A DNA stretch of 64,000 bases from Nitrosospira sp. Nl5. Its GTDB lineage: Bacteria; Pseudomonadota; Gammaproteobacteria; Burkholderiales; Nitrosomonadaceae. Both the position numbers and the translations under genes were made by a program. Every line of letters begins with the position of its first letter. Position 1 is the stretch's first letter. Under the pieces are notes generated by a model, which saw only the letters and a list, made by a program, of their open reading frames with translations, had not been told where the DNA came from and did no database searches. Positions 12,933 to 17,381 of the stretch are shown in pieces. Where the stretch lies: positions 62,001 through 126,000 of the forward strand of contig NZ_FMVQ01000008.1 of assembly GCF_900102495.1 (NCBI RefSeq), in the 5' to 3' direction.

Positions 12933-13310
12933 TGTGGAGTGCCGCACGGCAAACGCCAATTCTACCTTAGATAACAACCTGAATGAAAAACAAAAAACAA
13001 GTCCGGACGATATAATAAAGGGGGCTGGTGACACATTGAAAAGCGTCTGCCATATTTGAAAATCACCCTCACCCTCTTACGCTCATTTTCTTCCCCCAAA
13101 GGCAGCACGAAAGCAGCACGAATTCTTGCAGAATTTCTGTCGCTTGGACAGCCCTGGAAGGAAATAATTATGCCGTTGTTGCAGCATGAGCCTCTGGCAT
13201 TTTGTTCAGGCTTGAGCCCGATTGCCGGGGCATGGAACGGGATTCAGCGCATGGGAATTCGGGTCTGCCCGCTTCCGCCGAATTGTGACATAATATTTTG
13301 TCCAAAATTT
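12933..13310. other. Intergenic region upstream of the HvfA-like gene
   Basis: No gene is supported. A frame running through 13056-13412 has no ribosome binding site and overlaps the next gene out of phase. A short direct repeat, GCAGCACGAA twice, lies near 13101-13122. TAATAT at 13291-13296 could be a -10 box for the next operon, but no matching -35 is seen, so control by an alternative sigma factor is possible but unproven. Confidence 0.45.
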
Positions 13311-13323
13311 AGGAGGAAATACT

Positions 13324-13734
13324 ATGCGCAACAAGAAATCAATCATTTCCATGGCTGTGGGTTCTGCGTTTGCCGCGACTCTCGGTACTGTACCGGTTGC
13401 CTCCGCGGCTGACAGTCCCTTTACCGTGCAGTCCTTGGACAAGGGCTACATGCTGGCCTATGCGGACAGGGTTGACCCAAATAAATATGGCGGCGGAGCA
13501 AAATCTGGCGAAGGTAAATCTGGCGAAGGTAGATGCGGCATGTCCATGGTAGATGCCAACAAGGATGGCAAGGTCAGCAAGGAAGAATTCCTCAAACATC
13601 ACGAAGCCATATTCGACAGGATAGATACCAACAAGGATGGCGCTGTCGATCAACCTGAAGCTGACAAGTATGGCGGCGGTGGGGCGAAGCCTGGCCCCGC
13701 TCCGCAAGCTCCGCATGGCGGAATGAAGAAGTAA
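13324..13734 (+). CDS. Secreted EF-hand protein, likely HvfA-like RiPP metallophore precursor
   Basis: This 136-residue exported protein has a strong AGGAGGAAA site 5 bases before the ATG. Residues 1-28 are a signal peptide ending VASA. The mature start SPFTVQSLDKGYML resembles the NPF...L..GYM start of HvfA-type precursors. Next comes a Gly/Glu/Lys repeat ending GEGRCGM (residues 60-73) that resembles the EGKCGEGKCG motif modified in HvfA, but only C71 remains; two positions are Ser. Two canonical EF-hand loops follow: residues 77-88 (D, N, D, K, S, E ligands) and 101-112. The tail is Pro/Gly rich. The gene directly precedes an MNIO oxidase and its partner, so it is probably their substrate. 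A plain calcium-binding protein is the alternative. Confidence 0.7.
   Translation: MRNKKSIISMAVGSAFAATLGTVPVASAADSPFTVQSLDKGYMLAYADRVDPNKYGGGAKSGEGKSGEGRCGMSMVDANKDGKVSKEEFLKHHEAIFDRIDTNKDGAVDQPEADKYGGGGAKPGPAPQAPHGGMKK
13501..13530 (+). repeat. Tandem 15-base repeat in the core of the precursor gene
   Basis: AAATCTGGCGAAGGT occurs twice in a row (13501-13515 and 13516-13530) and is followed by a diverged third start, AGATGCGGC. Each unit encodes KSGEG. The Ser codon TCT is one base from the Cys codon TGT. Confidence 0.9.
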
Positions 13735-13746
13735 TTTCCGCTCCCC

Positions 13747-14598
13747 ATGGATCCCCTGCGTCTTGCCAGCGCGGGGCTGGGTTTTCGGCGGGAATTAATT
13801 CCCGCGCTGAAAACCCATGTTCCCGTAGCCATCGATTTTTTTGAAATCGCCCCAGAAAACTGGATTGATCTCGGCGGCACGGCAGGGCGTGATTTGCGGA
13901 GCTTCACCGAGCGCTACCCCTTTGTGTGCCATGGTTTGTCTCTCTCGATCGGTAGTCCGGCCCCGCTGGATGAAGTATTGCTGCACAAGATTCGACGGTT
14001 CCTGGACCAGCATCGAATTCTTTTTTATACCGAGCATCTCGCGTACTGCTCCGACGACGGCCATTTATACGATCTGCTTCCAATACCTTTTACCGAGGAA
14101 GCCGTGAAATACGTTGCCGCGCGTGTTCGCCGCGCTCAGAATATCCTGGAGCGGCGCATCGCGCTTGAAAATGCTTCGTTTTACCTGCGAGCCCCTATTA
14201 CTGAAATGAGTGAAGCGGAATTTATCCGCGCCGTGCTAAGCGAGGCGGATTGCGATTTGCATCTCGACGTCAATAACGTATACGTCAACAGCATTAATCA
14301 TGCTTACGATCCCATTGAATTCATCCGTTCCATGCCTACCGAACGCATTGTCTACATGCATATCGCGGGGCACCACAATGAGGCAAAGAATTTGATTATC
14401 GACACCCACGGCGCAGAGGTCATCGATCCGGTGTGGGAGCTGCTCGATCAGACCTACCGTATTCATGGGGTCGCCCCCACGCTGCTGGAGCGCGACTTCA
14501 ATATCCCCCCCCTTGATGAACTGATGCGCGAAGTCGAACATATTCACCTGATTCAGACTCGGCATGTCGATGCCAGCCATGTCCGCGCCGCTTCCTGA
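13747..14598 (+). CDS. Multinuclear non-heme iron oxidase (MNIO, DUF692; HvfB/BufB/MbnB type)
   Basis: This 283-residue TIM-barrel enzyme belongs to the family that modifies Cys residues of ribosomal peptides into oxazolone/thioamide or related copper-binding groups. Visible family signatures are GLGFRRELI at the start, FFEIAPENW, FVCHGLSLSIG, YTEHLAYC, RIALENAS, LHLDVNNVYVN, YMHIAGHH followed by IDTHG, and LLERDFNIP. The His, Glu, Asp and Asn residues in these blocks correspond to the iron ligands of MbnB-type proteins. It begins 12 bases after the EF-hand precursor and its last 20 bases overlap the next gene, so the three form an operon. The exact chemistry on this precursor is unknown. Confidence 0.92.
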   Translation: MDPLRLASAGLGFRRELIPALKTHVPVAIDFFEIAPENWIDLGGTAGRDLRSFTERYPFVCHGLSLSIGSPAPLDEVLLHKIRRFLDQHRILFYTEHLAYCSDDGHLYDLLPIPFTEEAVKYVAARVRRAQNILERRIALENASFYLRAPITEMSEAEFIRAVLSEADCDLHLDVNNVYVNSINHAYDPIEFIRSMPTERIVYMHIAGHHNEAKNLIIDTHGAEVIDPVWELLDQTYRIHGVAPTLLERDFNIPPLDELMREVEHIHLIQTRHVDASHVRAAS

Positions 14599-15373
14599 AT
14601 TTCAGCACTTCCAGTATGCCTTCACGGCGCATATCCGCGACCCCAAGGCGAATCCCTGTCCGCATGGCATTGAAGCGCGGCGTATGGGAATATACAAGAG
14701 GCTGGTTTATAACAACATTGAGAGTTTTCTCTTGACCTGCTTTCCCGTACTCAGGAAGGTGCTGGGAGCACGCCGGTGGGAACGGCTCCTGCGTCTTTTC
14801 CTCGCCACGCATCACAGTCGCTCACCTCTTTTTCGCGAGATACCCGGTGAGTTTATTCAGTTCCTGCAAAGCAATGGGCCGCTATCTTCCGACTATCCGG
14901 AATTCACGCTGGAACTTGCACATTATGAATGGGTGGAGTTGGTACTTTCCATTTCAACCCACGCACCGGATCGGAATGAGATCGATCCCGAAGGGAGCCT
15001 GCTGGAACAGCGCCCGGTTTTGAATCCGGTACTTGCGAATCTGTGTTACCGCTGGCCCGTGCATCGTGTTGGTCCCCACGTCCGAATTGCGCCAACAGAA
15101 ACATGTTTACTGGTATTCCGCGATGCCGGTGACCACGTCCGATTTACTGAAATCAATGCATTTACTTCGCGCCTGATTAACCTTCTAGAGTCAACGGAAC
15201 TCACCGGCCAAGCAGCGCTTGAAACCGTCGCTGTGGAAAGCCGTCATCCCTCGCCCGAGGTCGTCATCCAGGGAGGACTCGCGATTATGCGCGACTTACA
15301 GGTACGCGGTGCACTGCTTGGTACCCTGCGTAATGATGCCGGCGATACTCGAATTCCACCTACCGATAATTGA
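14579..15373 (+). CDS. MNIO partner protein (DUF2063; HvfC/BufC type)
   Basis: This 264-residue protein has the N-terminal DUF2063 pattern FQYAFTAHIRDP, RMGIYKRLVYNNIESFLLTCFPVLRKVLG, then HHSRSPLFREIPGEFIQFL. In HvfBC, BufBC and MbnBC pairs this protein binds the precursor leader and hands it to the oxidase. ATGs at 14564 and 14570 are also in frame; 14579 was chosen because it leaves the usual short lead before the first helix, but none has a good ribosome binding site and coupling to the upstream gene is likely. The C-terminal third is less conserved. Confidence 0.88.
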   Translation: MSAPLPEFQHFQYAFTAHIRDPKANPCPHGIEARRMGIYKRLVYNNIESFLLTCFPVLRKVLGARRWERLLRLFLATHHSRSPLFREIPGEFIQFLQSNGPLSSDYPEFTLELAHYEWVELVLSISTHAPDRNEIDPEGSLLEQRPVLNPVLANLCYRWPVHRVGPHVRIAPTETCLLVFRDAGDHVRFTEINAFTSRLINLLESTELTGQAALETVAVESRHPSPEVVIQGGLAIMRDLQVRGALLGTLRNDAGDTRIPPTDN

Positions 15374-16050
15374 AATTGAATTCGAAGTTCCCTCCCGAAG
15401 CTCATGCAGGCGAGCATGTGAATCCTGATCGACAGGACCTCACGACAATTTCCTCTCTTACGCTCGCGCACTACAACGAGCGTGCCGATGATTTCTGGAA
15501 GGGCACGCGCGAACATGACGTCGGACAGAATATCGCAGCGTTGCTGAAACATATCAAGGGTGAATCTCCTTACACCATCCTGGATTTCGGCTGCGGGCCG
15601 GGCCGCGATCTCAAGACTTTTGCTAAACTTGGCCATATCCCGGTTGGGTTGGACGGCGCCGCGCGATTCGTCGAAATGGCTCGCGCCTACAGCGGCTGCG
15701 AAGTGTGGCATCAGGATTTTCTTAGGCTCGATCTGCCGGACGGGCACTTTGATGGAATATTCGCTAATGCTTCGCTGTTTCATATTCCCGGGCGTGCGCT
15801 ACCGCGTGTACTGAAAGAGTTGCATGCGACGCTGAAACCGGACGGTGTACTGTTCAGTTCCAATCCACGCGGAGACAACGAAGAAGGCTGGAGCCGCGGG
15901 CGCTATGGCGCATATCATACTATTGAAGCGTGGCGAGGCTATATGATCGCTGCGGAGTTTATTGAAGTTACCCACTATTACCGGCCGGCTGGTTTGCCGC
16001 GCGAACAGCAGCCATGGCTCGCAAGCGTGTGGCGCAAGCCAGGTAGGTAA
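15370..16050 (+). CDS. Class I SAM-dependent methyltransferase, coupled to the MNIO operon
   Basis: This 226-residue Rossmann-fold methyltransferase has motif I ILDFGCGPGRDL at about residues 70-81, an acidic loop at VGLDGA, and FDGIFANASLFHIPG as post-motif II. The TTG start overlaps the stop of the DUF2063 gene in TTGA, so the two are probably translated together; a GTG at 15418 is an alternative. The substrate cannot be told from the sequence. Its position raises the chance that it tailors the same peptide, but it could be an unrelated small-molecule methyltransferase such as those acting on quinones or tellurite. No DoxX-type fourth gene, common in related operons, is present. Confidence 0.8.
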   Translation: MKLNSKFPPEAHAGEHVNPDRQDLTTISSLTLAHYNERADDFWKGTREHDVGQNIAALLKHIKGESPYTILDFGCGPGRDLKTFAKLGHIPVGLDGAARFVEMARAYSGCEVWHQDFLRLDLPDGHFDGIFANASLFHIPGRALPRVLKELHATLKPDGVLFSSNPRGDNEEGWSRGRYGAYHTIEAWRGYMIAAEFIEVTHYYRPAGLPREQQPWLASVWRKPGR

Positions 16051-16178: not shown

Positions 16179-17381
16179 ATGAAACTAAAAAAAGATGTGA
16201 TAGTGATAGGCGCCGGCGCAGCGGGGATGATGTGCGCGATCGAAGCAGGCAAGCGCGGACGCTCGGTAGTGCTGCTGGATCATGCGAGGAAGCTTGCGGA
16301 AAAGATTCGTATTTCCGGCGGGGGGCGGTGCAACTTCACCAATCGCTACACCGCGCCGGAAAATTTCCTGTCACACAATCCGCATTTCTGCCGGTCCGCG
16401 CTGGCACGCTTCACCCCGCAACACTTTATTGCGCTGGTGGAGAGGCATGGCATCCATTATCATGAAAAGAAGCTGGGTCAATTATTTTGCGATGACAGTT
16501 CCCAGCAAATCATCGACCTGCTGCGGCATGAGTGCGATGCGGCAGGTGTCGAATGGCAAATGCCTAATCGCGTGAACAATACAAGCCGTACTCATGCCGC
16601 TGCGGCTCCCGGTGGGAGGTTCATGCTGGAAACCGAAAGGGGCATTTTGACTGCCGATTCATTAGTCATCGCTACCGGTGGCCTTTCCATTCCACAAATC
16701 GGCGCAAGTTCTTTCGGCTATCGTATTGCTGAGCAATTCGGCATCACAGTTACCCCGCGGCGGCCGGGGCTCGTTCCTCTGACTTTCATGCCGGAGCAAT
16801 TTGCCGGTCTCTCTACGCTTTCAGGAGTTGCGGTTGATGCGGCGGTTAGCTGCAACGGCGCGAGCTTTCGTGAGAACCTGTTGCTTACGCACCGTGGTTT
16901 GAGCGGCCCCGCAATACTTCAGGTTTCTTCCTACTGGCAGCCAGGCGCTCCAATTCATATCAATTTGTTACCGGACATCGATGCGGCTGCGTGGCTGCTT
17001 GACTACAGACACAGCACTGTGCTGCTATCCAATCTGCTGACGCAATACCTGCCCAGACGTTTTGCACACGCCTGGTGCGAAGCGATTATGCCGGGGCAGC
17101 CAGCCCGGCCGGTAAAGCAGTACGGTGAAATCAGGTTGAAGCAAATTGCCACACAATTGCATAACTGGCAAATCACGCCAAACGGTACCGCGGGCTACAA
17201 AAAAGCGGAAGTGACGCTGGGCGGGATTGATACCCGTGAACTGTCATCCAGAACCATGGAGGCCAGGAAAGTGCCAGGGCTTTACTTTATCGGTGAAGTG
17301 GTGGACGTAACGGGACATCTGGGCGGTTTCAATTTCCAGTGGGCCTGGGCGTCCGGTTATGCGGCCGGGCAATGCGTATAG
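16179..17381 (+). CDS. HI0933/YhiN family flavoprotein
   Basis: This 400-residue FAD protein has an N-terminal dinucleotide-binding motif, VIVIGAGAAGMM (residues 7-18). It is followed by the family signature KIRISGGGRCNFTNR near residue 45, the second FAD motif VIATGGLSIPQIG, and the C-terminal ELSSRTMEARKVPGLYFIGEVVDVTGHLGGFNFQWAWASG. Members are called aminoacetone oxidase or simply NAD(P)/FAD-dependent oxidoreductase; the physiological substrate is not established. It lies 128 bases after the methyltransferase on the same strand and converges on rhlE. The gap shows no terminator, so it may share the upstream transcript, but nothing ties its function to that operon. Confidence 0.88.
   Translation: MKLKKDVIVIGAGAAGMMCAIEAGKRGRSVVLLDHARKLAEKIRISGGGRCNFTNRYTAPENFLSHNPHFCRSALARFTPQHFIALVERHGIHYHEKKLGQLFCDDSSQQIIDLLRHECDAAGVEWQMPNRVNNTSRTHAAAAPGGRFMLETERGILTADSLVIATGGLSIPQIGASSFGYRIAEQFGITVTPRRPGLVPLTFMPEQFAGLSTLSGVAVDAAVSCNGASFRENLLLTHRGLSGPAILQVSSYWQPGAPIHINLLPDIDAAAWLLDYRHSTVLLSNLLTQYLPRRFAHAWCEAIMPGQPARPVKQYGEIRLKQIATQLHNWQITPNGTAGYKKAEVTLGGIDTRELSSRTMEARKVPGLYFIGEVVDVTGHLGGFNFQWAWASGYAAGQCV

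Follow-up and report, generated by a model that had tools for sequence, protein, structure and literature searches.

Do the iron oxidase and partner protein of an MNIO operon act on a secreted EF-hand protein encoded just ahead of them, and does a methyltransferase gene found just behind them belong to the same pathway? The question is raised by a four-gene run in a 64,000-nucleotide stretch of the ammonia oxidiser Nitrosospira sp. Nl5 (assembly GCF_900102495.1, contig NZ_FMVQ01000008.1, positions 62,001 to 126,000), a genome of 3.03 Mb. This whole stretch, part of contig C18 in our numbering, is called the window hereafter, and coordinates refer to it. The MNIO operon is genuine and belongs, as a variant, to a type already published; what is unusual in it is a single cysteine apposed to an EF-hand, with a matching natural loss elsewhere, not the methyltransferase. 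The explanation we favour, with moderate confidence and from comparison of sequences, is that the EF-hand protein, named A2, is a specialised substrate the only core cysteine of which (Cys71) would be converted by HvfB and HvfC, the methyltransferase and a flavoprotein encoded next to it being probably bystanders. The four genes are intact open reading frames (ORFs), all on the same strand:

13324–13734, plus strand: A2, secreted protein with two EF-hands and one core Cys (ORF, Pfam, homologues; signal peptide by eye)
13747–14598, plus strand: hvfB-type MNIO, PF05114 (NF003818, Pfam, match to 3bww)
14564–15373, plus strand: hvfC-type partner, DUF2063/NGO1945_C (NF050145, Pfam, match to 3dee)
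15370–16050, plus strand: class I S-adenosylmethionine methyltransferase (Pfam domains, fold; start probably GTG 15418)

The MNIO operon and its precursor

The original prediction, made from this DNA alone, placed EF-hand, MNIO, DUF2063 and methyltransferase genes in a row, with 12-base spacing and two overlaps. The four ORFs are there, their families matched by Pfam and NCBIfam, A2 and hvfB are 12 bases apart, and hvfB and hvfC overlap by 35 bases; the second overlap, 4 bases between hvfC and the methyltransferase gene, presupposes a TTG start codon, which is probably incorrect. The hvfB product scores 351.8 bits against the Pfam family MbnB_TglH_ChrH, exceeds the cut-off of the NCBIfam HvfB family (NF003818, 432 vs. 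360 bits), and has 3bww as the closest solved chain (E 1.6e-81). It is the sole PF05114 match, hence the one MNIO, of the source genome. The hvfC product features DUF2063 and NGO1945_C domains, exceeds the cut-off of the HvfC family (NF050145, 277 vs. 142 bits), and matches the structure 3dee (E 4.8e-19). Searches of PHROGs returned no match for A2 or HvfB.

A2 carries a signal peptide, recognised by eye, a leader motif at residues 31–43, and two EF-hand_5 stretches detected by Pfam behind the core, as had been predicted, with EF loops at residues 77–88 and 101–112. The core (SGEGKSGEGRCG) has one Cys only, in a single EGRCG motif; this residue, Cys71 (codon 13534–13536), lies six residues ahead of the first EF-hand Asp (position -6). 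Counted from the leader motif on, one Cys at -6 is found in all the 22 A2 orthologues located before hvfBC in the genus group g1 (23 genomes), which we take to be Nitrosospira-like. Additional Cys in four g1 A2 ORFs fall within the signal peptide or an over-long ORF start. Residues around Cys71 vary across g1, while Cys71 itself is invariant (22/22). All four genes are under purifying selection in g1, the median ratio of nonsynonymous to synonymous substitution rates (dN/dS) being 0.113 for A2, 0.084 for hvfB, 0.147 for hvfC and 0.144 for the methyltransferase; pairs with dS between 0.1 and 1.5 were kept (67/210, 70/210, 91/210 and 70/190, respectively), from a set without G105 and G112 that included the apparently frame-shifted methyltransferase of G110.

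Precursors of this make are known. According to the portions of PMC12452194 available to us, Buf_EGKCG/oxazolin precursors are of two types, the second consisting of a short core to which a pair of EF-hand_5 domains is fused; these chimaeras are putative MNIO substrates by gene context, and those portions contain no test of them as such. The EF-hand/MNIO/DUF2063 arrangement is therefore already known, and the EF-hand fusion, which the original prediction took for distinct, is a published one. A2 belongs to this type, with two EF-hand_5 domains after a short core and its gene upstream of that of an MNIO; signal, core, EF-hand pair, MNIO and DUF2063 partner are shared, as is the lack of 17-residue repeats. 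It differs in having one EGRCG, with the Cys fixed at -6 (the published Cys counts lie outside this comparison), in the lack of DoxX alongside, and in the methyltransferase and flavoprotein genes after hvfC; the word methyltransferase is absent from the main text of that paper, in the portions available.

Two characterised systems, again as described in the available portions of the papers, offer further comparison. Haemophilus oxazolin HvfABC(X) (PMC13419390) shares HvfB- and HvfC-family enzymes and a secreted precursor with a leader. HvfA carries its six modified Cys within AEGKCGEGKCG repeats, vs. one Cys in A2; a DoxX-like HvfX is present and EF-hands are unmentioned, the A2 operon being the opposite on both counts. 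The fontiphorin/captophorin system FonABC (PMC13097082) shares an MNIO with a PME1 partner and a small residue after the Cys, and tolerates Arg before the Cys in a double-repeat substrate, which compares with the EGRCG of A2; FonA has seven sites, A2 one. No EF-hand term occurs in the available portions of a proteomics paper on ammonia oxidisers (PMC5960693), and none of the papers searched mentions Nitrosospira together with 'EF hand' or 'EF-hand'.

Cysteine and enzymes across genera

The single-Cys A2 type precedes hvfB in 22 of the 23 g1 genomes; only in G112 is this place taken by an EF-hand precursor of the multi-EGKCG kind. Precursors before hvfB in the g4 group have EF-hands and three core Cys (8/8 loci examined). 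Among 16 loci examined in the g3 group, the precursor is HvfA-like, of the classic kind and lacking EF-hands, in 12; in two more it has EF-hands and three core Cys, and lies behind hvfC in one of these; the last two show no precursor within the short stretch examined. The position of the Cys was compared in 74 distinct homologues scoring above 70 bits, those under 70 bits being excluded. The Cys nearest the EF-hands is at -6 from the EF loop in 56 of them, including an irregular protein (L200, CCKM) from an MNIO-less genome; the remaining 18 comprise the seven Tyr-bearing g2 proteins, three short peptides that lack EF-hands, and eight further cases, either His-rich orphan EF-hand proteins or irregular. 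The same Cys-EF spacing is found in G287, from another family of the order (f43), next to its own MNIO.

The sister genus group g2 carries most weight. Seven of its eight genomes encode an A2 homologue, and these proteins, together with the 22 from g1, make up one side of a split supported 100/100 (midpoint root). The HvfB query found no MNIO in six of the seven genomes, and in the seventh, G003, only a distant one (~32% identity). All seven orthologues have Tyr at the position of the core Cys, and all Tyr cases among the 74 homologues are exactly these seven. Measured on a consensus built without g2 and G021, mean leader identity is 0.47 in g2 vs. 0.67–0.84 in other EF-hand groups; the figures for the EF loops are 0.73 vs. 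0.72–0.83. Loss of the HvfB-type enzyme, Tyr for Cys, a weaker leader and retained EF-hands together link the core Cys with the enzymes, and the EF-hands with something other than them. In G004 a Cys-less EF-hand gene (L086, contig C3, 1896–2624, minus strand) is directly followed by HvfC fragments, one of 47 amino acids (E 1e-9) and a second of 26 (E 0.006); the leader is still good (0.77) and hvfB is undetectable. Judging from these remnants, the locus is a half-decayed MNIO operon.

Could A2 itself have ceased to be a substrate, being a periplasmic calcium-binder kept in place while HvfBC serves tandem EGKCG peptides or orphan paralogues? The persistence of EF-hands without an MNIO would fit this, as would the second precursor found directly upstream in 10 of the 23 g1 genomes, always with at least three core Cys and in three cases a short EGKCG peptide without EF-hands. 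Yet the source genome has no such peptide, neither tandem precursor nor remnant being detected upstream of A2 in the window (best E 0.2), and a GEG[KR]CG pattern search of the genome (AAR/AGR codons) gave A2 only, though an orphan EF-hand paralogue on contig C30 has the motif YGEGRCG. The invariance of Cys71 amid variable neighbours, and its replacement by Tyr in g2, which has no HvfB-type MNIO, also speak against a passive A2. We regard this alternative as unlikely, though not negligible.

Several points count against modification of A2, the first two of which also favour the alternative just described. A2 falls below the cut-off of the curated HvfA domain (NF050137, KCGExKCG_twice, 14.9 vs. 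19.5 bits), scores 10.5 bits against NF050188 (cut-off 95), and has no repeated EGKCG. Its core thus departs from that of an ordinary HvfA. FonBC modified a two-repeat and not a one-repeat FonA peptide, according to the available portions of PMC13097082, and A2 offers just one. Of the six g2 genomes in which no MNIO was found, two are incomplete (G006, 79%; G007, 72%), and the Cys may have been lost only once in the evolution of g2. G021 (99% complete, no MNIO match) retains SGEGKCG in an EF-hand paralogue, and G017 (80% complete) also retains a Cys, with shifted spacing. L084, an orphan in the MNIO-bearing G112, has a leader identity of 0.23, equal to the lowest in g2. Orphan EF-hand paralogues are common, and ones with GEGRCG lie away from the operon. 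The AlphaFold2 model of A2 alone is unusable (predicted local distance difference test, pLDDT, 41), so that the geometry of Cys and EF-hand is taken from the sequence. Lastly, with one thiooxazole in each chain, A2 by itself would chelate metal poorly.

That relatives might carry the EF-hand gene without the DUF692 gene as often as with it, an outcome which the original prediction held to be damaging, is partly the case, orphans being common and one residing in this very genome; many of them retain the same core Cys, and may be modified in trans. One orphan in G104 (L085, contig C12, 1865–2671, minus strand) has the module of core Cys and EF pair doubled, with four EF-hands and two EG[RK]CG cores. 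Kinship of A2 with lanmodulin or type III effectors was rejected, as scores were far under the cut-offs and the EF-loop region alone matched. His-rich, secreted-looking EF-hand proteins with the Cys in an HQC motif were observed in g3, away from any MNIO (L090, L091, L202–L205, L211), and are possibly another metal-binding family.

The methyltransferase, the flavoprotein and an upstream element

In the original prediction the methyltransferase replaces DoxX, and the combination was seen as possibly a distinct metallophore or metal-buffering system. One more gene has to be considered here:

16179–17381, plus strand: TIGR00275 FAD-binding flavoprotein (411 bits, cut-off 183.8), conserved downstream partner of the methyltransferase gene in g1

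The four-gene unit probably continues into this gene. The methyltransferase features methyltransferase domains (Pfam) and is of class I. High-scoring g1 homologues align from residues 10–22, mostly from 17 or 22, and residues 1–16 of the model are under pLDDT 50; the start is likely the in-frame GTG at 15418, which leaves a gap of ~44 bases after hvfC and makes the 4-base overlap doubtful. In relatives the gap, calculated on first-start ORFs, lies anywhere between -232 bases, where an ORF is over-long, and 276.

A survey of homologous neighbourhoods in the family, suggested along with the prediction, found A2-hvfBC in 22 of the 23 g1 genomes and, in 21, the methyltransferase gene 3' of hvfC in the same orientation; G104 and G112 lack this gene, and in G110 it is apparently frame-shifted. 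G104 has A2, hvfB and hvfC without it, and the flavoprotein gene on another contig. Wherever both were found in g1 (20/20 genomes), the flavoprotein gene directly follows that of the methyltransferase, at 31–131 bases, indicating that the tighter link of the latter is not to the MNIO. In G112 neither gene is present and hvfC borders directly on hslU, so that the pair may correspond to one insertion or deletion.

That the methyltransferase is dedicated to maturation, methylating what the MNIO makes (for example at the exocyclic sulfur of a thiooxazole) and so yielding a distinct peptide metallophore, would fit the position of the gene in g1, its purifying selection, the grouping of g1 methyltransferases in one clade of the wider family (SH-aLRT 94, quick tree), and the joint absence of gene and single-Cys A2 in G112. 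The hypothesis is at odds with the operon of G104, the broken frame of G110, the constant flavoprotein partner, and the distribution of the family at large. Matches at E 1e-25 are found in 52 of 349 order-level genomes, including the source genome; in the 17 loci with wide flanks, part of the 51 matches outside the source genome, no MNIO, HvfC or precursor lies within ~4 kb (17/17). The same holds for the flank examined of 73/73 loci from named genomes, 72 of which have a full methyltransferase frame (L191 gave only a weak partial match) and 13 of which are shorter than 9 kb, in a scan that may omit records close to the source genome. Four close plasmid homologues have no such neighbours as far as their incomplete annotation tables go. 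Models for methyltransferases of ribosomally synthesised and post-translationally modified peptides (daptide, ApyS) are below cut-off (NF041820, 21.5 vs. 175 bits; NF050150, 10.9 vs. 400 bits), and the fold is generic class I. A maturation role is accordingly quite improbable; the methyltransferase is likely a neighbour, and probably makes up with the flavoprotein a pair of co-located metabolic genes.

Attempts to read its function from the fold (pLDDT 91.6) ended in diverse class I matches in the PDB (3e23, 5ufm, NTMT1 and others); in 94 loci (L191 excluded) recurrent neighbours came mainly from Oxalobacteraceae, none telling of function. As to DoxX, none is found beside hvfBC in the window, the one match in the source genome being on another contig (C24), and in 125 genomes of the family no place among the DoxX matches listed adjoins an HvfB-type gene (compared by eye). 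The claimed replacement of DoxX does not survive these results, the absence of the gene from two of 23 g1 genomes, and the homologues outside g1 that have no MNIO. Among the matches listed, DoxX lies ~1 kb from an MNIO in G002 and G003 only, both MNIOs being distant; these loci (L065 and L066; ~32% identity) are possibly bufferin-like clusters. A second, distant MNIO-like match was also observed within a 494-amino-acid frame of G095 (L067, contig C10, 3001–4485, plus strand).

Upstream of A2 lies a short conserved block:

13284–13297, plus strand: promoter-like 14-mer TGTGACATAATATT, extended -10 shape, 26 bases upstream of the A2 start

It occurs exactly once per genome in 22 of the 23 g1 genomes, 23–27 bases ahead of the A2 start (22/22), and is missing in G112, which has no single-Cys precursor; with one mismatch, it was seen in two of five g4 loci viewed. 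Such invariance is unusually strong for an upstream element, and no comparable block was found in the dksA upstream region, aligned alike as a control (16 sequences, G112 included, with two pairs that each come from one genome or from near-identical ones). The consensus of extended -10 promoters is TRTGnTATAAT, which the 14-mer resembles; it may thus be a putative promoter element, and is not regulon-like, as these genomes hold no further exact copies. A palindrome around it was rejected, the downstream half not being conserved by eye.

A possible role for a single site

How might the operon work? A2 would be made with its signal peptide, and HvfC would recognise the NPFxxQSLxKGYM-like leader. 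HvfB would then oxidise Cys71, most likely to a 5-thiooxazole, as characterised MNIO-PME1 systems do (PMC13097082, portions available), and the modified protein would be exported to the periplasm. There the one heterocycle, on the entering side of EF-hand 1, might bind copper together with other ligands or another chain, in a site shaped by Ca2+. The EF-hand part would have a second, MNIO-independent role, because EF-hands survive without the enzymes. The source genome encodes a protein of the ammonia monooxygenase (AMO) family; AMO is copper-dependent. Copper buffering by a metallothionein-like peptide with several thiooxazoles, as in bufferins and oxazolin, is very improbable, since A2, with its one Cys, could not by itself form a multi-site chelate, even if the enzymes are the same and g4 EF-hand precursors and tandem copies have at least three EGKCG-type Cys.

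The claim that an MNIO and its partner act on the Cys of an EF-hand precursor thus draws support from the operon and from the evolutionary signs on the core Cys, and loses the methyltransferase as part of the system. A broader reading, tentative and unlikely to hold as a whole, is that MNIO chemistry has shifted from building a multi-site chelator to placing a single heterocycle on a folded calcium protein of the periplasm. The thiooxazole, genetically encoded, would sit on the entering segment of an EF-hand, Ca2+ occupancy gating copper (or redox) binding at the modified Cys; the module of Cys and EF pair would have spread by duplication, one HvfBC serving in trans, and where HvfBC was lost the Cys would have turned into Tyr, the calcium protein persisting.

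The methyltransferase is a case in which adjacency alone can mislead the annotation of a cluster. The g2 group amounts to a natural knock-out, in which the HvfB-type enzyme is gone, the Cys replaced, the leader weaker and the EF-hands kept, and which singles out one residue. From this pattern the HvfBC of g1 is predicted to work on a substrate with one site, whereas FonBC left a one-repeat peptide unmodified.

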